The position numbers and the translations under genes were made by a program. The notes beneath the pieces are model-generated. The model saw only the letters and a list, made by a program, of their open reading frames with translations, was not told where the DNA came from and did not search any database. DNA of 64,000 nt, from positions 20,147,014-20,211,013 of the forward strand of contig CP141144.1 of the NCBI GenBank assembly GCA_035235625.1, written 5' to 3'. This stretch comes from Saururus chinensis. Taxonomy: Eukaryota; Streptophyta; Magnoliopsida; Piperales; Saururaceae. This document shows, piece after piece, positions 5,073 through 34,100 of the stretch (the stretch's first letter is position 1; every line of letters starts with the position of its first letter).

Positions 5073-5403
5073 CTATCTCTGTGTTAGATACAAGTACTTC
5101 ACCGAAAGGAGAGAAAATAAGGTAATCATCATCAACCAACATCCCCAGGCTGTCAGATTGTTGGATGACATGCCATAATCTCCTAGCTTTTTCGGTGGCG
5201 AGGATAACAGCACAAAGCGGATGTCATCCTCAATATATACAGCATCAACTGGTTTGAACTTGAGCTGGGTTGCAATAGGCACCTCTTGAAGCCCACAAAT
5301 TGAGAGTTGTATCCTATAATAGTACAAAACTATCCACTATCAGAGATATTGTTCAATCTCTCATGGTTCCTAAGGTGGTAGATCAGATACATTATCATAG
5401 TTA
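5073..5403 (-). other. Probable 3' UTR of WNK, with an unexplained open frame
   Basis: Downstream of the WNK stop codon. A minus-strand frame at 5073-5327 (84 codons) reads in a protein-like way (for example 'KFKPVDAVYIEDDIRFVLLS'). I recognise no family, and it is not in frame with the kinase. It may be untranslated sequence or the relic of another exon. Confidence 0.35.
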
Positions 5404-8371
5404 TCAATCATCACCTGCTTTTAGTTGATCAGGGTGTTCTGAAGTTGATGTGCTTAAGGGGCTGTTTTTCATGTTTGCGTGAATTTGAGAGTAGCATGCC
5501 TGAGATAGTTGTGCCTCTGGTTCTAAGAAAGATTTACAAGATTCAGTACATTGCCCTCCATACCAATGCCTATCACTTTCTGTTGATTTCCTATGGCTTG
5601 AATATTTCAATTGGCATAAGTGCAAAGTACTGATGCGAAGTTCAGGTGGGAGATCTTGCAAAATCTCAGTAATGCCCACTTCATGCCTGTCCTTTATATC
5701 GAGAAGTTCCTTTTGCTGCTCTGCCAATAGCTGACCTAATTTCTGAGTGACAGCTTTGAATTTCTCTGCATGGAGAAATAACTTCATGTCAACCAACTGA
5801 TCAGGTGGAGATAATCCAATTCCATTGATGTAACTTCCTAAAACCTTTCTAATTACCTGGAGATTCTTCTGATCCAAAAGTTGCACGTGTAGCTGAAGGT
5901 AAGACTAACTGGGTAGGCTTTACTAATAACTCATTTTGATCACCCTTAGGTGAATCTCTGGTATCTGCCTGACTAGATGAAGCTTGTTCAGGCATAAGAC
6001 CATCTAAAGTTTGATGATTACTAGTTTCTCCTTCTTTTTTTGGAGCTTTGTTTTCCAGCTCAAAATCATTTGGTTCTCCTTGTTCGTTCAAAGAATTCTC
6101 TTCAAAAGTCTCACCAGGGTGCCAACTTGGGACATGAGCTTGTATTTCTGAATTAATCATGGCAGCAATTGTTGAGACATCTTCATCTGTCAGGTCTAGT
6201 TCTGAAACCATTTCACTAGCAACACTTATTGCTGTGTCTGCTTCTATGTCAAATGGAAAATGGATGTTGCGAATGTCACCTTAGAGAGACATAAAGCAAA
6301 GAACATTTGATGATAAAGTTATCCCGCAACAAATGTACAAAAAACCAAATCAAGATAAAAATTGAGATCAGACAGGAACCTGTGGAATCCACAATACGTA
6401 ACTTCAAGAATATAGTGTTTTGGTCTCTCCTTTGGCCTTCAACTGTAAAGCTTCCATTAGATATCGGAAGACAATCTTTGAGGCCGAATAAGGTAATATC
6501 TGTTTCTGGATGTTGATACTTATAATCTGTACACAATATAAACTAATCAACTATTTGATTATACTCATTTTAATTTAACGACAACAAGGATATCCTTCCA
6601 AACTTTCACCTGAAGTATCTGTCAGAATATAATCATCCACAATTTTATTTTCACAGTTAGATGTCAAAAATGGAACCGTTAGTAACTCTCTCGCAGATAA
6701 CCTTTCAGAAACATTGGCAATACATTTGTCAATGAATTTTTTTACTTCAGGGTCTTTTACTTTTCCCAATGATAGAGGCTTGATTCCCTATAGAAAATAA
6801 AAAAGTAGATCAATACAATGCAGGCCAACTAAAGTCTTCCATCAGATGATCAAAAAATTAGAAATCACAAATCAAACTAATCTTTATTTTTGTCAAAATC
6901 TTCTTTTTTCTTTTCTAGTAATTGAACATGACAAAGTGAGAATATATAAACAAATAAGAAAGTTAAAGGATATCATACTAACATTTTATGGATTAGGAAG
7001 CATTCATTATATTCACACCTCGATTTTTCTATTAGAACACTTTTATACAACGCAAATAACGAAAGAAATAACGGAAGAGTGATGAAAGTTAGTATTTACA
7101 AAAAGCTAAAAAACTGATTGAAGAAACCTCACCGCTGCTACTTTCTTGTATATTTGAGCTGGATTAACACACTCCATGTATGGGTACTCAAGAGTTACTA
7201 ACTCTAATAAGCACATACCAAAAGCATATATATCGACTAGTTCATTATAATCCTCCTCATAAAGCTCCGGCGCCATGAACTCAGGAGTACCTACAATTCC
7301 AGCAATAAGTAAGAGCACATGGTTTAAATATATTGATTTTAACTGCCTATACACACCGATGAGTGTATGAGCTGAATTTGCCTTGCAAAGAGTGGCTGCC
7401 AAGCCAAGATCGCCAATTTTCACCTCGCCGGTATTACCATTGACAAATATGTTATCGCATTTCAAGTCACGATGAATCACTGGAGGGTCATGGTTGTGAA
7501 GGTAGACAATGCCTCTCAATATTTGCCTTGACCAATTCTTCAATGCTTGCAACTCCACTCGTTTATATTTCTTTCTATACCTGATTAAGCATCATAAATT
7601 CAACGAGTTGATAATTAATTCAAGTTATGAGATGGAGCCTTGATGCTGATCAAGAGAAAATTAAAGAGTCTGAAGAAACGCAGGCAAAAGACTTACTGGC
7701 GCAATGTCCCTGATGTAAAGATCTCGGTAATAAAATTGATGTTGTCATTGTTGGTATCAACCCATGATTTGTAAAACTTGATTATGTTTTTATGGTTTAA
7801 AGTTTGAAGCAAATGCACTTCAAAATAAAGGCGATCTAGGTCCTCTTGATTTCGTGTGACATCAAACACTTTAATTTGATTCCAAGCTACTTCAATTCCT
7901 TCAAATTCGTCAAATGCTTTATATCTAAATTAGTGCCATAAATCAAGGACATATACTCTGCTCGCAATGCAATAATTGACCATTCCTTAATTATACTTTT
8001 CTTTTATAATTCACTTGTTAAAAGTAGAAATTCGCCAGTAAAAATTGTAAAAGTTTTCAATTTAAATGAGTTAGGATTGAAAGAAACAAAATGATGCAAG
8101 ACTACAAACAATGAACAGAGGATACACTGTTTTGAATGCTCCCCTCCCCAACACCTCCTTGTACTGCAAATATTAACACCAAACACAACCATTAAGAATG
8201 AAAACAAGACACAACTTGTCAATAATGGAGAATTAAAATGTAACATTATCAACAAAAAAATAAAGAAAATGGCAGTAAGAGATATATACTAACACAACAA
8301 TAGCGACCGGTGGGATCGAACTCGGCGAAATCCCAATCCTCATTGGGCTCCTGATCGGCAGGGGCATCCAT
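5404..8371 (-). CDS. WNK (with-no-lysine) Ser/Thr protein kinase, nine exons
   Basis: Protein kinase of the plant WNK family, presumably cytosolic. Exons in transcript order: 8371-8294, 8163-8126, 7924-7697, 7580-7357, 7290-7133, 6787-6594, 6528-6380, 6279-5857, 5765-5404; phases agree throughout and give 617 aa. The glycine loop GRGAFKTVY carries Lys37, the WNK-specific catalytic lysine, while the usual subdomain II lysine is Asn54 (VAWNQ). The catalytic loop HRDLKCDN is near residue 152, DLG at 173, and GTPEFMAPE opens the P+1 region. Exons 7-8 encode an OSR1-C-like domain (DITLFGLK through RNIHFPFD), followed by an acidic tail and a predicted coiled coil ([13 protein letters not shown]). 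The intron at 7291-7356 is 66 nt and in frame, so an unspliced reading looks continuous. The start at 8371 precedes the conserved DPTGRY. Introns 7925-8125 and 6529-6593 look U12-type. The exon 6/7 junction has a GT-AG alternative (intron 6527-6584) that adds two residues. Confidence 0.9.
6529..6593 (-). other. Candidate U12-type AT-AC intron in WNK
   Basis: Read on the minus strand, the intron begins ATATCCTTG, a full match to the U12 AT-AC donor, and ends TGTAC. Joining GAAGG to AGATTATAAG keeps the frame and gives [15 protein letters not shown] competing GT-AG intron (6527-6584, donor GTTGTCG) is also in frame but has a poor donor. The branch site is weak (TTGAT, 18 bases before the end). 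Confidence 0.5.
7925..8125 (-). other. Candidate U12-type GT-AG intron in WNK
   Basis: Read on the minus strand, the intron opens with GTATCCTCTG, close to the minor-spliceosome donor consensus RTATCCTT. It carries TCCTTGAT, matching the U12 branch site TCCTTRAY, with the branch A 18 bases before the end of the intron. Splicing here is what restores the conserved FKTVY-K-AFDEF sequence; other GT donors nearby give a stop. There is no long pyrimidine tract before the acceptor, as expected for U12 introns. Confidence 0.7.
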
Positions 8372-18277: not shown

Positions 18278-18780
18278 AAAATCTAAAGTACATGAAGTAT
18301 CACACATACTTATATGCTTTTAGTATTAAATATTAATAAATACACTTTAACAAGTATTACAACTACACCTTGAACATTTGACTATAGTCATTAGGAAAGA
18401 AGAAAAATATGACAAATAAATTTTAGTTACAAATGCTCAAAAAATGCAGCATTACCATTTTCTTCTCTATATGCTTATAATCACTAAAAAGGATGTAGAA
18501 AATAAAAACTAACTTAGGCAACATTATAATTCATATCTTCTTTTCTTTACTTGCTTATATATCACTTATAAAATAACTATCTATTAGCCTAGTATGCCTC
18601 TAAAAATTTCCTAAAGTATATGTAAAAAAAGAAACATTTTGTAAGCTAAGCATGGTCCCAATATCATGCTTCAACTTTTAAAAGAATCTTCTATTTATTC
18701 TTTTGTAAATTAAGCTTGGTCCCCCTAGTGTCATGCTTCTTTTAGAAAAGTTTTTGGGTATATTAGCATAAAATAATATT

Positions 18781-25020: not shown

Positions 25021-28000
25021 AGTGTAATGATCTAAATTTTATGGGTTATTAAGTATGTGTGCTACTTAAATTATAAATTGCAGATAAGGTAAATTAAAAG
25101 GGTAGAATGATTTTTGAGTTAAAGGCCGAGCTTGTCAAGGTTGGCCATGGCAAATTGCGAGGATGCAATTGCGCCGGCAGTCTATATTTCTAAGCCACCC
25201 ACCCCTCCACCGCAGTAGGGGGCAGCGCCAGCAAAGGCCGACTAGTCTCTTGCCAGTCGCAGGGAAGATGACCCGCGGTGCAGGTTGTCTGCTCCCTAGA
25301 CTGGGTCGGGAACCCGATCCGGTTTTGTCAGACTCCTTAAAAAAAACTTACACTCTAACTGAACCAAGTCCGGTTCAGTGAGTTAGAGTAGTCAAAAAAT
25401 TATGAATGACCATGAATGTATGAATAGTGCTTTGACCAAGTTTTAAATTAAGTAAACATCTCATATGCTTTGAAATGATATATTTACCCTTGTGAGCTAA
25501 AGCATAAAATAACGGTGATTAATGATGAGACTTAAGGGCTATGAGTTGATTTAAAAATTAAGAAAAATTATAGTCAAATTTTAATGTGTATCCTAAATTT
25601 GGACCAAGCTATAAGCTAGGAAAAAATCCCAGTACATAGATAATTGACTATTTTACCACTAGGGTTAAGGTAAGATAGTTATTTCAACCGGGGTCGGTTC
25701 AAGGGGTTTACGACCCCGTTAAACAGGAAGAAAATTACCTCATGTTCATAACATCAAGGTGTACACTGTGATTAGTTTTGGTCCTTTTAGGATTTAGAGA
25801 GGCCCTGAACAAAAAGATACAAATACCCCTATGCAGATCGGCCCGCATTAGTGTAAATGAAATTAACGGGCCAATGTGATACTAAATTTTTTTGATAGGT
25901 TAAAAACTTAACCAAGAGCAGGGAGTACCATATCCAATGTTGGCTAATTACCTTAATACCGTCAGGTAGATTATGATTAGTTTTTAAAGAGATTTAATAA
26001 GTTAACTCGAGGAGGGTTAGGGCATGTGAGCTAAAATAATTCTAATATCATTATTGAATTTAATTATTAATATTATGATTTGCTTAGACCTGTGTGGTTC
26101 TGATTGTTTATGTTGTTTATTGTTTTGATATTTTGCTATTGATGTTGTGAAGTAAATTATCACTAGCTTAATATTATTAAAAGATTAATCGATGGGGTGG
26201 ATAACTTTGGAATAATATCACACCCTTTCCTTTGAAGTTATTTAACATCATTATAGAGTACCCTAACTCTTGGCTAGCTAGGTTATCCGTTTCGGCAAAA
26301 ATAGAATATACTGCCCCTAAGGGCATTAGAGTAATTCTACCACCTGGGGTACGGTACACTCTCTTGGGTCATTCTGGTAATCTCGCTACCCTCCTATTAA
26401 TTTTAAGTTATTGCCCTCTCCCAAGGCTTTACTCTCAAATCAACTCGCGCTTCTATTTACACGAATGTGGGCGATTTACTCAAAGGGGGAATTTTGTCAT
26501 TTTATTCAATGCTTTCTTGACATCCAATAAGCCCAAAATTGGGCTCTCAAAGGTACTAATTGACATCATGGACCCAGGGTAATTTTCCTGGCATTTGACG
26601 GATTGTGAACCCCTTGAACTGACCATGATGGTTTACCCTAAACACTAAGGGCATAATAGTTATTTATCCACTTGTAGGTAATTTCCCTCACTATGTGTTT
26701 TGGACTATATTTAGAGTACACATTAAACTCTCACTGAAAATTTTCTCAATTTTTAAGTCCACTCGTAGGCTCTTGAACCAGAGCCTCTAAATGGGGTAAG
26801 TGAACCACGACTTAGCTACAAGGGTAAAATGCTTATTTCACAGACACTAAAATTTTCTCTAGCCTGAAACTTGGTTAAGATACTTAAACACCTCTCAGGG
26901 TAAGTTTTTCTAATTTTTGTGAACACTTATATCTTCTTGAACCGGACCAGTTTCAATGACCCCTCCTTTTTTTAAAAAAAATAGACCCGGGTCGGGTCTT
27001 GAACCATGTGGTTCGGGTCGACTGACCCAGACCCTTGCAGATAACCAGCATTGTGGGTCATCTTCTCCACGTCTAGCCAAAGGCTAAGGAGATTTTGGTG
27101 GTGCCGCCCCTAGCCACCAAGGTGGGGCGACGGCCAGGGCCAATCGGATTGCCATCACATGGCAATTCCGATAGCCCTGGCTTGGCCACTGCCGGTGGCC
27201 AGTTGGGGCAACAAAGCCCCTCTCTCTTTTTTTCTTCTACTCTTTGTCATCTATCTAATCAACATGGTGGCCAGCCGCCATGGCCAGGCAAGGCCTAGGC
27301 TCAGCTGCCGCTTGTTCCTTGGCTCCGGACCACCACCGGAATGCAAGCCAACCCATGCTACCAATGTCGCACTGTCCAGAGCCAAAAAGGCTCTGGTTTT
27401 TCATCTCCTAGAGCCTTCACGGCCAAGACTTGCCAGCCACGCTTATGCAGCCAAGGCCTCTAAGCTAGGCCAACATGCCCTAGGCTAGCAAAGCTAGACC
27501 AGTATGGCCCAAACCCGCCGGTCGATGAGTATTTTGTGCCCTACCGACACACAACATCCTCTAGCAAAGCTAATTAACTCTTAAACCAAATAACATAGTT
27601 AAAGACTAGACAAGTTACCTTGTTAAACACCGGTATTCAAGTTTGTTCCTCTTCACCTCCATCAACGGCCACCTTTTGCAGAAAAACCTCCCTCGATGGC
27701 TCCTTCTTATTCCTCCCCTCACATCCAAAGCTTCTACCTAGAAGCTTTAATTTGCCCTTTTTATAATGAGATTAGGGTTCCTAATCCAACTCAACATCTC
27801 TTAAGCAACCTAATTGGACCTCTTAAATTAATTTCTATAACTTTAATTAACCAAGCCAATAAAACGATTTTAAATATCCAATTCGCACATCCAATTCGGG
27901 GTAAATAGGCCCTGTGTGTTATGTTCAACTTCGAACGGTTGTAACTCTCTCATCAAAACTCCAATTCGTGCATTCTTAGTGGTGTTTCAAAGTTCTTTCC
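25021..28000 (-). mobile_element. LTR-like block, minus orientation
   Basis: The left edge on the plus strand is tgtaatgatctaaattttat, the complement of an LTR ending in CA. A TATA-like box (TTATAAAAAGGGC) lies on the minus strand near 27757, and the sequence between is non-coding. Size and arrangement resemble the 3.2-kb solo LTR at 49876. The right boundary and target duplication were not found; the Mutator-like element at 28364 may lie in or beside it. Frames at 27095-27488 come from GGCC-rich sequence and show no domain. Confidence 0.35.
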
Positions 28001-28189
28001 GTATACTTTTTATTATATAGGTTTAGCCACTAATTCTAATTATTTAGTAAGTTTTTCTCACAAGAAAGTTAATGGGTCAAATACGCTAATTTTCACATAG
28101 TCAACTTTAGGAATTTAAAAATTTTCAAGATGTTATAATGATGCTTTTGTCAAAATGACCCAAGAAATAATATAGTATTAAGTACTATT

Positions 28190-28310
28190 TAATTATATTA
28201 AAATATTTTAACAATAATGTTAAAATATTTTGATAATAATGTTAAATTATTTTAACAACAATATTAAATATCTTAATATTATTGTAAAAATATTTTTGTT
28301 AGTAGGTAAA
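28190..28310. repeat. AT-rich tandem repeat, unit about 25 bp
   Basis: Four to five degenerate units of the form aatattttaacaataatgtt occur just left of the Mutator-like element. Confidence 0.6.
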
Positions 28311-28413
28311 AATAATTTAACTTTGTTTAGATCTTGTGTTGATTTAAGTTTGAGAAAATAATAGGGAAAATTATATAAATAATAATTTTAAAAAAATTAT
28401 TTACCAAAATAAA

Positions 28414-28690
28414 CCACTTTGGGAAATATTTCCCAAAGTGGTGTTCTTTTTTGCCACGCAGGCGCCAACAAAGCAGTTGACGCCTGCGTGGTTTTTTTTT
28501 AAAAAATTTTAAGTTGATTTCGTCGTTTAGAAGGACGAAATTGGTTTTAAGCCGATTTTGTCATTCTAAACGATGAAACCGTTTTAAGTTGACCCGGTTT
28601 CGTCCTTCAGAACGACAAAACTACCACACTTCCCATTTCGTCCTTCGGTCTCGGCGACAATACTGATTTCATCGTTCTAAACAACGAAAT
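28414..28690. repeat. Palindrome array, left end of the Mutator-like element
   Basis: In order: a perfect 28-base palindrome (28414-28441, core gggaaatatttccc), a hairpin with an 11-bp perfect stem ccacgcaggcg/cgcctgcgtgg (28454-28464 and 28481-28491, loop 16), and then at least three imperfect palindromes of about 25 bases built on tttcgtc...gacgaaa (28519-28690). Confidence 0.85.
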
Positions 28691-29317
28691 AGAAATAAAT
28701 TTTTTAATAAACTATTTGAAACTAATTTTATCACTTGTCCATGTTCATTCATTCAAAACATACACAATTGCATTCATTCCACCCATTCTATGCATAACAA
28801 ATATAACATTAAAGTACATCGTAGACAAGTATCAAATATATTACATCACAAGTCGAAAAAATGTTTAGTTTAGAATAAACATATAAAAAAAGTAAAGTCA
28901 TAATCTCCTACGTCGTCGACCTCGACCGGCTTTAGCTCCGACACCGGCTCTGACTCCGGCTCCAGCTCCGGCACCGGCTCCGACTCCGGCTCTGGCTCAG
29001 CATAAGTAATAGATGGTACAATACGAGCTGGTTGATATCGTCTATAATATAAAATTGGATCTGGCTAAGCTACATGTGCAGTGTCCTTTTAACGATGTGT
29101 CCCTATGGCCCACACAACCTGTTGTACCCGTCTATGAGTCCCTCTCACTTTAACAGTTGTTTAATTCTTGAGACTTAACTTACCAATACTTGATTATAAT
29201 CTATTGTTTATACCTATTTAAGAAAGTGGACTTGAGCCCCACTGAGATCCACCAAGCTACGGTGAGCTCATATTTTAATCTTACATCTAGAAGAAGGCTT
29301 AGATAAATGTTTCGACA

Positions 29318-29665
29318 CAAAGAAAAGAAGGCTCAAAATTTTTTTCAAGAAAACCCAGCTAAAAAACACAAAGAAAAGAAGGCTCAAAAGATTTTTCAAG
29401 AAAACCCACCTAAAAACAATTAAGGACCATGATTTCGTCGTTTAAAACGACGAAATCACCACAATAAACCTTTTGAGCCCAGCGCCATAAAAAAAATTGC
29501 ATGTGTTAGACGTATAAAAACAAAAGCCCACCTAAGTTGAATGTGTTGACAAAATTATATTGTGACTAGTCCCATCAAAGGTCTTATTCCTTTGTAAAAA
29601 AAAAAATTTATATTGTGAGCCATCCCATCAAAGGTCTTATGCCTTAAAAAAGTCTTATTCCTTAT
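29318..29665. repeat. Short direct duplications inside the Mutator-like element
   Basis: A unit of about 50 bp ('acacaaagaaaagaaggctc' and following) is present twice at 29318-29417, and a second unit ('cccatcaaaggtcttat') twice at 29569-29642. A central palindrome gatttcgtcg/cgacgaaatc sits at 29431-29457. Confidence 0.7.
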
Positions 29666-30202
29666 GGGGTCTACAAAATTTTTGCCTTATTACGCCAAAG
29701 TTTAAGTGTTTACACATAAATTTGAGTTTTTTTGGTAGGCATAATATATGTTTATTTTTTATTAAATTATTTTAAAATAATAATTAAAAAAAATATTTAT
29801 GTGTAAGTGTAGTAATTTATGGACCTCAAAATCATAGCTTTTTAGAGCCCAATGCCATAAAAAAATTGTGGCACTCAAGAGGGGGAACAGTATAAAACTA
29901 GTTACGATGTTTTGGCTTGAAATAGTCTAAAGCGAGAATAATTAATTTTTGTCTTGCATATAATTAATGAAGTCGTATTTTAGGATAGAGAAGGGGAGAG
30001 AGAGAGAGCATGCTTTCGCCGGGATTTCGACCATAGCTCCGGTGCCCTCGGAGGGGTCATCAGCATCGTCGAAATGCTCTTTCGCTGCAACATCATCACT
30101 TTCATCGGCCCGACGATGACGCCAGCAAGATCATGCAAACGTCTATCTTGCAAAGCAACGACAGCTCCATGCTCTAAGCACATTTTATTTAAAAAAGTGA
30201 GG

Positions 30203-30475
30203 TGATTTCGTCGTTTAGAAGGACGAAATCGCCTTAAGGTGATTTCGTCCTTCTAAAGGACGAAATTGGGTCAAGTATTTTAAAAACTTGACCCGATTTC
30301 GTCCTTTAGAAGGATGAAATCAGCTCTAAAGGACGAAATCAGCTTAAAGCTGATTTCGTTCTTCTAAACAACAAAATCAACTAAAAAAGTAAAAAAAAGC
30401 CCTTGCGCTAAGCTGAAATTTGGCGCGCAATGTGGCAAAAAGAAATACCACTTTGGGAAATATTTTCCAAAGTAG
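30203..30475. repeat. Palindrome array, right end of the Mutator-like element
   Basis: Four or five palindromes of the form gatttcgtc...gacgaaatc in near succession (30203-30370), some nested (for example ggtcaagt/acttgacc around 30270-30290), followed by the near-perfect 28-base palindrome at 30448-30475. This mirrors the order of the left end. Confidence 0.85.
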
Positions 30476-31133
30476 TCCAAAACAGTAATTATTTTTTTTA
30501 AATTATTATTTAAATAATTTTCTCAAAATAATATAAGAAAATACCCAAGAGGATAGTGGTGTTATGCATGCTATACAAGTTGGTGAAAAATTGGAGGGTG
30601 GGAGAATATAAACAAGAGGTATTTTTGTTTAGAACTGTACAAAAAATGACGTGATAGTAAGTGATCAAGCATACGGAGACTTAAGGGTGAGGACTAAAAG
30701 GTAAAAAAAAAAAGGCTTAAAGTTGAGAAACGAGAATTTTTGTAGAAAATGTTAAAGAAATTCTTCAAACAATGAGCTTTGATAAAATGTTATCGTCCAG
30801 TATTCTTGCCAAAAACGCTAAAACATGGTTCCAGATAAAATATTATCATAAAATTAAAAAATATTTATATGAAAAAGGGAAGAGAAATATTTCCACGATG
30901 TCAAGTATTATACGTGATGGGCTACGTATAGCCATTATGTGCAAATGGACGGTTTTGGAATAACGAAGTGACTTAATCAGTGAAACGCGTGAATGTAGCA
31001 TAGGTTCTAAGAAAAAGAAAAAAGGAAATGAGAAAACATCGTGAGAAAATTTGCAGTATTTGTTCGTGTTCACGACAAATAAGAGAGCCCAAATACAGAA
31101 AGTAGTCCCGCTCCTGCCGCTTTTTCGGCAAGA

Positions 31134-34100
31134 ATGGCGGCGGCGCTGCGCGGTGGCGCAAAGCGGACGCTGAGGGCTTCGAAGGTGAAGCAGGTGACCA
31201 AGACCAACTTCGCGACGGAGCTCGACGAGATAAAAGCTCGCATCCAAGGCTGTGACTTTGTCGCCGTCTCCTCCCAGCGGACCGGCGCCTTCTCCGTCCC
31301 CTGGCGCCGCCCGCTGCCCTTCGACACCGCAGAGATCGCCTACCGGAAGTCCAAGGAAGCTGCGGAGAGGTTCGAGCTCCTCCAGCTCGCCGTCTGCCCC
31401 TTCACTGTCCAGGCCTCCAAAGTCGTGGCCTACCCGTAAGCATTTCAAATTTTACGTGTTCTAGACATTATCGTAGTAAGTCGCATGTAAACTAGTCGAC
31501 GAAATGCCTCTACGAAGATTAGGAACTACGTAGTCGTTGCTAGTAACGTATACTAACTAGTTTTGGGATAGTGTCTGGAGGGGACAATGAGTAGTCTCCA
31601 AAGTTTAGTTTAGCTAGATTGTCATATAGAAGTTTATGATTCAGAGTTTTGAAACTGGGTCTTTCTTGTTTTCCCAAGAGTCTTGAGGTGGTAAGGTGCG
31701 GAAAGAACATAGTTCTGGATTTCTATTGCCGTAGACTTGCACTGGAAATATTGGGTTCTCTTCTTCTTAACCCGTGTTCTAGTTGGTTGGTAGGATGCTG
31801 TGTGATATGACATGTCGTGCTGATGCTGCAGATACAACTTTCACTTGTTCCCTCGGGATGAATTTAATGTCGGCATGCCATCCTATAGCTTTTCATGCCA
31901 AACATCATCGTTGGAATCCATGGCTCGCCAAGGTTTTGACTTCAATGCGTGCATATATGATGGTGAGCCTTCCTATGGTCGAGAAGTTTATTTTTTTTTA
32001 ATTTTTTTGAAACAATTTAGTCATGAGAAAACCCCAGCTGCTGGGTTGTACTATTCATTCATACTTCAGATATCCTTCTTTTATTGTCTATATACAGGAA
32101 TATCTTATATGTCAAGAGTACAAGAAGCTAATGCACAAATTCGAGTGGGAAATTCAAGATCATGTAGCTATCCTGTGAAATCCTCTTCCAGTCCAGCAAT
32201 TGCTGATGCAGTATTTATGGAAAGGATTAAGTCTCGTGTGTGGCATTGGAGGGAATCGTGCAAAAATTCCATTGAAAAAACTGATGGTGAGAGTCTAGAC
32301 CCATCAGTTGCTTCAGAGTAGATTTGTATTTGTTATCATTTGTAATTATTGCTATCCTATGGGATCGTTACAGATGCTTTGGTCAGTTCCTTAAGGAAAA
32401 TTATCCTTGGAAGTGAAGTCTATGGTACAAGGCCGTGCATGACGATAGATATTTGCAACAGTCGCCAAGTACAGCTAGTTCTGGAGGTACATTTCGACCT
32501 CATTTTACATTTATCAGTATCCAATTGGCCTTCTATAGGTTTAATGTCAATACTTAATTATTTGCTATAGCTTTGATATTATGTCTAAATTTCTTTAGCT
32601 TTGACATCTTATATCTTATGCTATGAAAGCTTATAATTCCTCACAGAACTAACCAGGTGTGCGATACTACTGGAATCTGATTATGGAAAACTTTATACTA
32701 TGTAAGAATAAGCCCATGAAGGCATGATTAGAACACCCATCAATAAGCATGTTGCAATTAATGTCACTCTGCATTTTGTTCATGGCAATTTTGTCTGTTG
32801 ATTTGGGGTTTATTTAGTTTTTGTTCATGTAGTGCTTGACCTTTTCCTTCATTGATTAGTTTCTCTTCACACCAAGTTTAGGTGGTAGGAACTTCAAGGT
32901 TTTGTTCATAGCAATTTCGTTGGTGTTGATTCAGGGTTATATTTTGTGCTTCTTCTGCAGACTGCTTGACCTTTTTGACTGGTCCTCTTTTTACCATCTT
33001 TATGAGGTTGGAACTTCAAGGCCATGTTCAGCTCCCTCTATGGCCGTCACTAGGTCAAGGAAAAGTTAATTTTCTGCCATATGCACTTCCTCGATCTTTA
33101 TGCATATGCGTCCCCTCACCAGCTTGGTTACTATATAAGTTTCATACTCCATTTACCTGTTGCCCACCCAGTAAAGCGGGTGGGTAAGCAGGTGATAATC
33201 TTAACGTTTAGGCCCCACCAATTAAGGGTCTTTTGGCCTTCCACATATGCCCCTTCGCCCCCCAAAATACTAGCCTGTCACTTCCCTTACAACAGTCCTG
33301 CTGCAATTGTTGCTCTGCTCACACCTTTTCCATTTCAGAAAGAGCAGACTCTCCATGAAAATTGAGGAAAGGAGGCATAGTGATTGGAAACTGAGACCAA
33401 AACTGGATTGACCCACAGCTGCAAAAAAATATAAAAAAATGAAACTTAGAAGAAAATCTATTATCTATGCAATGTGTTTTGTCAGCTGCTTGGTACATGG
33501 CCCAGTTGATTTGGGTCCTCCTATTCCTCACCTGGGCAGGCAGATGGGTACTCAGAGCAGCGGTTGTTGATGCTGATGTCAGTGGTGGTGTCGGGTTGAT
33601 CTCAGCAGCTTGTGGTTGGACAATGGCTGCCGTCTAGTCTGCTTTTCAGATGCACTTGGGGATTTGTATGCAAGAACATATTTGTCATATGTCAACCAAC
33701 ATTATAGTGGTATGACAGATCATTTAATGGAGATGGTGAAGGTGGCAGAAGTGACTTGTAACTAGGATGAGATTTGGAATTTGGGTTTTATGAAACACCG
33801 AAAGGGGGCAAGGATAAAGGGTGTTATGGAGCGGGTCATGAGTAATGGGTATGGAATAAGGGTTATTCACGCATGCCTGGTTAGTGAATGGTCAACTAAA
33901 TCACCTACTTTTGCCTGTTGCTTAATCTCAAATTTTCCGTATGTTACAAGTAGATTGTGTGAGGTATTATGGGTGAAGGGTACAAACACCACAAAAGAAA
34001 TTCATGTAGAAAAATTAAATGTAGCTGAAATGCAGACACTAAGCAGGATGTGTGGAACAAGTTGGAGAGACCAGATTAGGAATGAGTATATTAGATGGAC

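Follow-up and report, generated by a model that had tools for sequence, protein, structure and literature searches.

The window, that is the whole stretch of 64,000 nucleotides of Saururus chinensis that was analysed, lies on contig C5 of the genome searched (516.46 Mb, 11 contigs) and contains an ordinary non-autonomous transposon, small and non-coding. The element proper occupies 28364-30524 (2,161 bp), between two identical copies of the 9-bp target-site duplication AAAATAATA at 28355-28363 and 30525-30533, as proposed in the initial annotation. Inward from either tip follow an AT-rich terminus (GGGAAAATTAT.../GAGAAAATTAT...), a 28-bp palindrome, a GC hairpin and an array of short sites. 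The outer terminal inverted repeats are found at 28364-28410 on the forward strand (GGGAAAATTATATAAATAATAATTTT..., one mismatch in 26 against the family terminus) and at 30477-30524 on the reverse strand (two mismatches in 26). Inverted ends of about 77 bp had been described; inverted ends are indeed present and reach further, to about 200 bp at 76% identity. The palindrome reported on each side, CCACTTTGGGAAATATTTCCCAAAGTGG, is exact on the left (28414-28441) and has two mismatches on the right (30448-30475). The GC-rich hairpin of the left end, likewise reported, was recovered in a palindrome scan at 28454-28491 (forward strand; 16-bp arms with one mismatch), a stretch included in the RNA folding, and its counterpart on the reverse strand, read by eye at about 30399-30436, is much degraded. 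A frame at 31134-31439 on the forward strand, which starts some 600 bp beyond the right end of the element, matches the CAF1 family of ribonucleases (PF04857, 7.2e-16) and is presumably PARN-like; the element sits just upstream of this CAF1-family gene.

Nine sites of the 23-bp pattern TTTCGTCNTTNNNAANGACGAAA, with at most three mismatches, are present in the element, forming mirrored arrays at both ends with one site in the middle. The left array includes sites L1 (28518-28540, fixed positions exact), L2 (28556-28578, two mismatches), L3 (28598-28620, one mismatch) and L5, numbered from its spacing (28667-28689, two mismatches). The right array has sites at 30206-30228 and 30243-30265, both exact at the fixed positions, at 30297-30319 (one mismatch) and, outermost, at 30354-30376 (three mismatches). 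Two single exact half-sites TTTCGTCCTT, at 28636-28645 on the forward and 30329-30338 on the reverse strand, are part of none of the nine. About ten palindromes with a TTTCGTC...GACGAAA core had been counted before, a number borne out by the nine full sites and two additional half-sites, and the palindrome noted in mid-element corresponds to the site at 29433-29455, with exact fixed positions. The middle site also occurs in the copies L004, L006, L007, L008 and L012 and is absent from L002 and L003.

The whole window holds 10 matches to TTTCGTCNTTNNNAANGACGAAA, the tenth at 18383 outside the element, against 0.06 expected by chance, and none of 100 shuffled windows had 10. Counting palindromes of any sequence was too weak as evidence: the element has 8, against 0-3 in 20 shuffles, and another tile of the window reaches 6. 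It is the shared sequence of the sites, rather than palindromy by itself, that is far beyond chance.

Genome-wide, 3,321 exact 23-mer sites were found (reversed-pattern control, 0) and 1,571 sites of the 28-mer with up to two mismatches (backwards-read control, 0). Listing the 23-mer sites by cluster gave at least 25 clusters, those listed all lying on contig C1; the first 20 of them represent 19 independent loci. The family terminus (up to six mismatches) is present in 18 of the 19, and 16 have the 28-mer (up to eight mismatches) as well; one locus (L011) has neither. In this 19-locus sample the 23-mer motif is almost wholly confined to one Mutator-like element (MULE) family. All copies come from a single genome, and sites were counted only at up to three or four mismatches, which underestimates their variation; one genome search scored the best 40 of 3,876 candidate places, and among these no host gene was identified as the parent of a captured fragment.

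Counting the window copy, 24 candidate elements with two ends, 0.68-7.1 kb long, have these ends in common. They are the union of 21 elements picked by hand and 22 pairs obtained by a uniform rule (both termini with up to seven mismatches and at least one site inside), which gained L018, L025 and L047 and missed L012 and L027. The 9-bp duplication is exact in 13 (including L012, whose left boundary was set partly by its duplication), has one mismatch in six and is absent from five with three to eight mismatches: L005, L024, L025, possibly a wrong pairing, L027, and L047, which sits in runs of T. At least one site lies near both ends in 20 of the 24, the right-hand site of L025 being doubtful; the palindromes that the initial annotation had suggested following across copies are thus kept in most of them. 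No site is recognised near one end in L018, the first L022 element, L027 and L046, three of which have an exact duplication, so that a full array at both ends is either not strictly required or was lost later in these four. When flanks were joined and compared within the loci taken, the junction was spanned solely by matches of loci to themselves.

At many ends, arrays of three to six sites make up long inverted ends of repeated sub-units, of the foldback type, foldback being here a structural label that implies no lineage. The inverted ends of L019 measure 792 bp at 94% identity; this is a 3.6-kb member (L019:3098-6680) with an exact AAATTATTA duplication. Another member, L016 (3.1 kb), appears to sit within a different repeat, in which GCGACGCTTA-like motifs recur. 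Two short members, each flanked by an exact 9-bp duplication of its own, lie some 170 bp from one another at L022:4188-5105 and 5275-6017.

A coding relative, as the initial annotation had anticipated, is present at L014/L015: an element of 7,107 bp with an exact TTATTTAAA duplication and the same ends and arrays as the window copy. Its stop-to-stop frames match DBD_Tnp_Mut (PF03108) at 1.9e-9 (37.5 bits, cut-off 25) and PMD (PF10536) at 1e-47 (163.5 and 50.9 bits, cut-off 34.9); the match to MULE (PF10551) at 2.2e-5 has 25.3 bits, below the cut-off of 27.6, and those to SWIM and CCHC are weak and both below cut-off. One PMD exon weakly matches DUF1985 (E 0.0079, below cut-off), and a search with the PMD exon for relatives of solved structure returned none at E up to 1. 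In segments inward of one family end, rather than in whole elements, the MULE match reaches 43.2 bits (L023, above cut-off), and SWIM and PMD reach 23.8 bits (above cut-off) and 153.4 bits, respectively, with PF10551 below cut-off (L009). As judged from these predicted domains, the 7-kb coding members carry a MuDR-type transposase and a PMD protein and represent a large MULE family. A genome search with the transposase exon gave 103 scored matches among 4,217 candidates, at 86-100% identity and including its own place. An exact 28-mer lies within 6 kb of eight of the 13 transposase places on C1 up to 47.37 Mb, the end of the stretch over which the 28-mers were listed (L014 among the eight), compared with 0.14 of 13 for random places.

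At its outer left end and in two internal blocks, 28699-28853 (69%) and 28935-29085 (81%), the window copy matches the PMD-side end of the L014 element, and its right end matches the same inverted end. The two blocks form a decayed stretch (28699-29085, reverse strand) resembling sequence that in the 7.1-kb element lies downstream of the PMD gene; its relation to that gene is inferred from its position in L014. Because L014 shares these ends, is flanked by an exact duplication and encodes predicted MuDR-type transposase segments together with a PMD protein, the window copy is classified from sequence as a non-autonomous MULE derivative with an internally rearranged middle. The original assignment to Mutator-like elements is upheld by the other copies, which share the ends, mostly have a 9-bp duplication and in some cases carry MuDR/MULE transposase segments. 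A cleaner deletion derivative of a coding member is L016 (92.6% over 1.3 kb). The ten loci with the best PF10551 matches (L029-L038) have no site in their 1.5-kb flanks, a length insufficient to rule arrays out. A MULE transposase gene of another kind, resembling the L029-L038 proteins at about 30-37%, lies on the reverse strand at L013:7116-8958, some 1.9 kb beyond where a family member ends.

Conservation of the sites was measured in aligned ends having a 28-mer (up to eight mismatches) beside a terminus (up to nine). The 61-row alignment held one spurious reverse reading of a palindrome (L014L9865) and was rerun with 60 rows. Across these 60 ends, sites 1-4 score 0.939 in their fixed non-CpG columns and 0.661 in the spacer N columns, and non-CpG linkers score 0.729; the 36 ends found independently of the site pattern give 0.962, 0.739 and 0.782, respectively, with fixed columns above linkers (Mann-Whitney p 1.4e-6, columns not being independent). 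Spacer columns off CpG score 0.701 against 0.724 for linkers in the 61-row run, some spacer columns touching CpGs. Among six close copies (L002, L003, L004, L006, L007 and L008, with L005 left out), fixed non-CpG positions are conserved at 97.6% and the interior at 94.8% (Fisher p 0.002). CpG-like positions in the same copies are less conserved in sites (0.745) than in the interior (0.89), so most copies have decaying sites. Of 209 changes at positions 4, 5, 19 and 20, 198 replace C by T or G by A.

Pairing between the two arms of a site is uneven. The stem position that varies freely, 8/16, is paired in 19 of 59 ends at site 1, where 17.1 are expected; the corresponding figures are 28 of 55 against 18.9 for site 2, 27 of 58 against 20.4 for site 3 and 26 of 58 against 21.4 for site 4. 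The excess is clear at site 2, smaller at sites 3 and 4 and about nil at site 1, and relatedness of the copies inflates it. Among 192 distinct site sequences the 8/16 pair is formed in 0.443, against 0.335 expected, and the CpG pairs agree with independence (0.625 vs 0.616; 0.651 vs 0.652; 0.792 vs 0.793). Decay of the arms is mostly by CpG transitions, and the two arms decay independently. Selection for a perfect hairpin was considered and rejected, the 8/16 and CpG pairs having no consistent excess of pairing. The palindromic 28-mer (0.890 vs 0.860 expected) and the GC hairpin (0.694 vs 0.673) have small excesses in the 61-row run, for which relatedness alone may account.

The sites are also oriented and regularly spaced. 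The centre triplet reads TAG in 48 of 60 ends at site 1 and CTA in 48 of 60 at site 2, and sites 1 and 2 form an inverted pair because these triplets are oppositely oriented. Of 204 spacings between adjacent sites up to 120 bp apart, 100 measure 37 or 38 bp, and others cluster at 42-43 and 69-71 bp. Most often site 2 lies 38 bp on from site 1, site 3 another 42-54 bp on, site 4 another 37 bp and site 5 about 70 bp more, an order which the other end mirrors; in most copies the array begins some 135-155 bp inside the tip. In their behaviour the sites resemble inverted half-sites in pairs, TTTCGTCNTT, and not stems whose pairing is maintained. Conservation, pairing, centre orientation and spacing are better accounted for by a dimeric protein bound to DNA than by a stem of RNA.

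Rather probably, an element-encoded DNA-binding protein, with the transposase as the likeliest candidate, uses the array as a multi-site platform. A dimeric DNA-binding protein from coding members, the transposase foremost, would bind the half-site pairs cooperatively at both ends; once bound, it would recognise and pair the two ends, and the DNA held between them would be moved. CpG observed/expected is 1.6-2.5 in the arrays and 0.86-0.91 in the rest of the two elements measured, the window copy and L014. Given the CpG density of the array and its decay by CpG transitions, methylation of its sites could serve as a natural off-switch, as proposed for the TNPA sites of CACTA elements. The platform is favoured because the tip distance is similar in most copies, the two ends mirror each other, non-coding copies with varied interiors have the array, and the 7.1-kb coding member has no site (up to four mismatches) between its arrays. 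The array belongs to the shared end: L019 and L014 have essentially the outer 300 bp or so of each end in common, their matches over 100 bp being limited to this part. Against the platform, the number of sites and the spacing between pairs vary among copies, and the excess of 8/16 pairing at site 2 leaves some room for selection on symmetry. Conservation of the sites could partly come from gene conversion or from recent amplification of arrays.

The most promising rival is anti-silencing by the second gene of the coding members, which we regard as possible and on balance unlikely. The PMD protein would bind the arrays and strip DNA methylation from family copies in the manner of VANC proteins. 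The gene is present in coding members, PMDs encoded by transposable elements have been speculated to counter silencing (PMC5418596, PMC8616336), and VANC21 and VANC6 work via arrays of short motifs located in non-coding DNA, including terminal regions (PMC5735166, in the part available). The domain to which the PMD exon is weakly similar, DUF1985 (below cut-off, as given above), is named for VANC, and the arrays are CpG-dense in both elements measured. The placement of the sites, mirrored, mostly at similar distance from the tips and lacking between the arrays of the 7.1-kb element, speaks against this rival; VANC motifs, by contrast, are reported in introns and intergenic DNA in a single orientation. 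The arrays are kept in non-coding copies as well, and the accessible literature gave no report of DNA-binding specificity for a PMD protein. In a more specific form, which seems somewhat less likely still, the PMD protein would be a sequence-specific factor that recognises the TTTCGTCNTT arrays and lifts silencing, and the array would provide symmetric, methylation-sensitive CpG sites at both ends. If true, PMD anti-silencing would explain why a transposon has kept a captured host silencing gene.

The initial annotation had left the choice between a multi-site transposase platform and a source of hairpin RNA; the former is favoured here, and the latter emerges as the weaker. According to the hairpin reading, to which we give little credence, transcripts of the arrays would form long hairpins and be cut into small RNAs that silence the family or affect nearby genes. 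Folding of both arrays of the window copy is indeed far stronger than that of 200 shuffled versions (-110.7 kcal/mol, z -11; -137.4 kcal/mol, z -17), and the long inverted ends of Mutator-like elements are often sources of siRNA (PMC10398659, as far as available). Strong folding is, however, a property of any nested inverted repeat and no sign of selection, while pairing at 8/16 is near chance at site 1, CpGs are lost independently in the two arms, and no Rfam match at gathering score was found in 28000-31000. The arrays could also be a neutral by-product of slippage or inverted duplication within long inverted ends, persisting through the recency of the copies. Site pairs with their linker are themselves inverted repeats and the number of sites differs between copies, as this origin would have it, but non-CpG site positions are better conserved than linkers and, in close copies, than the interior. 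The neutral reading is already disfavoured and appears very improbable. Which element protein reads the sites is testable, as is whether CpG methylation blocks the reading; the role of PMD genes for their host MULEs has been left open (PMC8616336, PMC5418596, in the parts available). With 3,321 exact sites, a regular geometry in the copies examined and occurrence in both coding and non-coding copies of one genome, the array is in addition a compact end signature for annotation of the family.

Components of this organisation are already known, namely PMD-bearing MULEs (PMC5418596, PMC6446971) and animal MULE ends made of repeated subterminal motifs (PMC5225508, PMC3169594), all as described in the available text. 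No description of a paired-palindrome array at MULE ends was found among the literature matches listed, from which subscription papers and Repbase lay apart; the matches listed for the motif letters are unrelated by title, and no literature joining DUF1985 with the plant mobile domain was found. The array is considered an undescribed variant because of this, while PMD-bearing MULEs and multi-site ends had been published. The earlier statement that no MULE family with such a feature is described accordingly holds in the narrow sense of the paired-palindrome array, and not for multi-repeat MULE ends and protein-bound arrays, which are on record (PMC5225508, PMC3169594, PMC5735166, in the portions available).

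PMDs are reported to be confined to angiosperms (PMC8616336, in the part available). PMD-bearing MULEs (groups 46-50 of the table in PMC6446971; grass and Amborella MULEs of PMC5418596) resemble the family described here in having a MuDR-type transposase with SWIM, a PMD and inverted ends, and a 9-bp duplication where one is given; unlike this family, they have no palindromic-site array at their ends in the descriptions available. The large barley MULE Hvu_Abermu (PMC9168764) is similar in its mostly 9-bp duplications and in boundaries beginning with GGG, and differs in its ends of 138-145 bp and three ORFs, the accessible text mentioning neither palindrome nor hairpin.

VANDAL elements of Arabidopsis with VANC (PMC5735166, PMC10398659, in the parts available) are likewise MULEs with a second gene having a DUF1985-type domain and with arrays of short motifs in non-coding DNA, a likeness that for DUF1985 rests on the sub-threshold match in the PMD exon. 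VANDAL inverted ends are reported there as degenerate, whereas those of the present family are long, as in the window copy and L019. The VANC21 motifs (YAGTATTAY) are short, lie in one orientation and extend over introns, intergenic and terminal DNA (PMC5735166, in the text available); the sites here are 23-bp pairs of inverted half-sites, mirrored at both ends.

Muta1 and other Aedes MULEs (PMC5225508) and Tm1 of root-knot nematodes (PMC3169594) share 8-9 bp duplications, repeated short subterminal motifs and a foldback-like structure with this family, as far as the available text goes. Their repeats are shorter, Muta1 having 12-bp units with gaps of 3-4 bp and Tm1 units of about 14 bp, and they belong to animal lineages in whose available descriptions PMD goes unmentioned. 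A precedent for the platform is provided by En/Spm (CACTA), where subterminal repeats bound by the element-encoded TNPA are cis-acting in transposition and methylation has been suggested to hinder TNPA binding (PMC2613891, in the part available). En/Spm belongs to another superfamily and has another motif, and the corresponding sites of the Saururus family are putative binding sites, recognised from their sequence.
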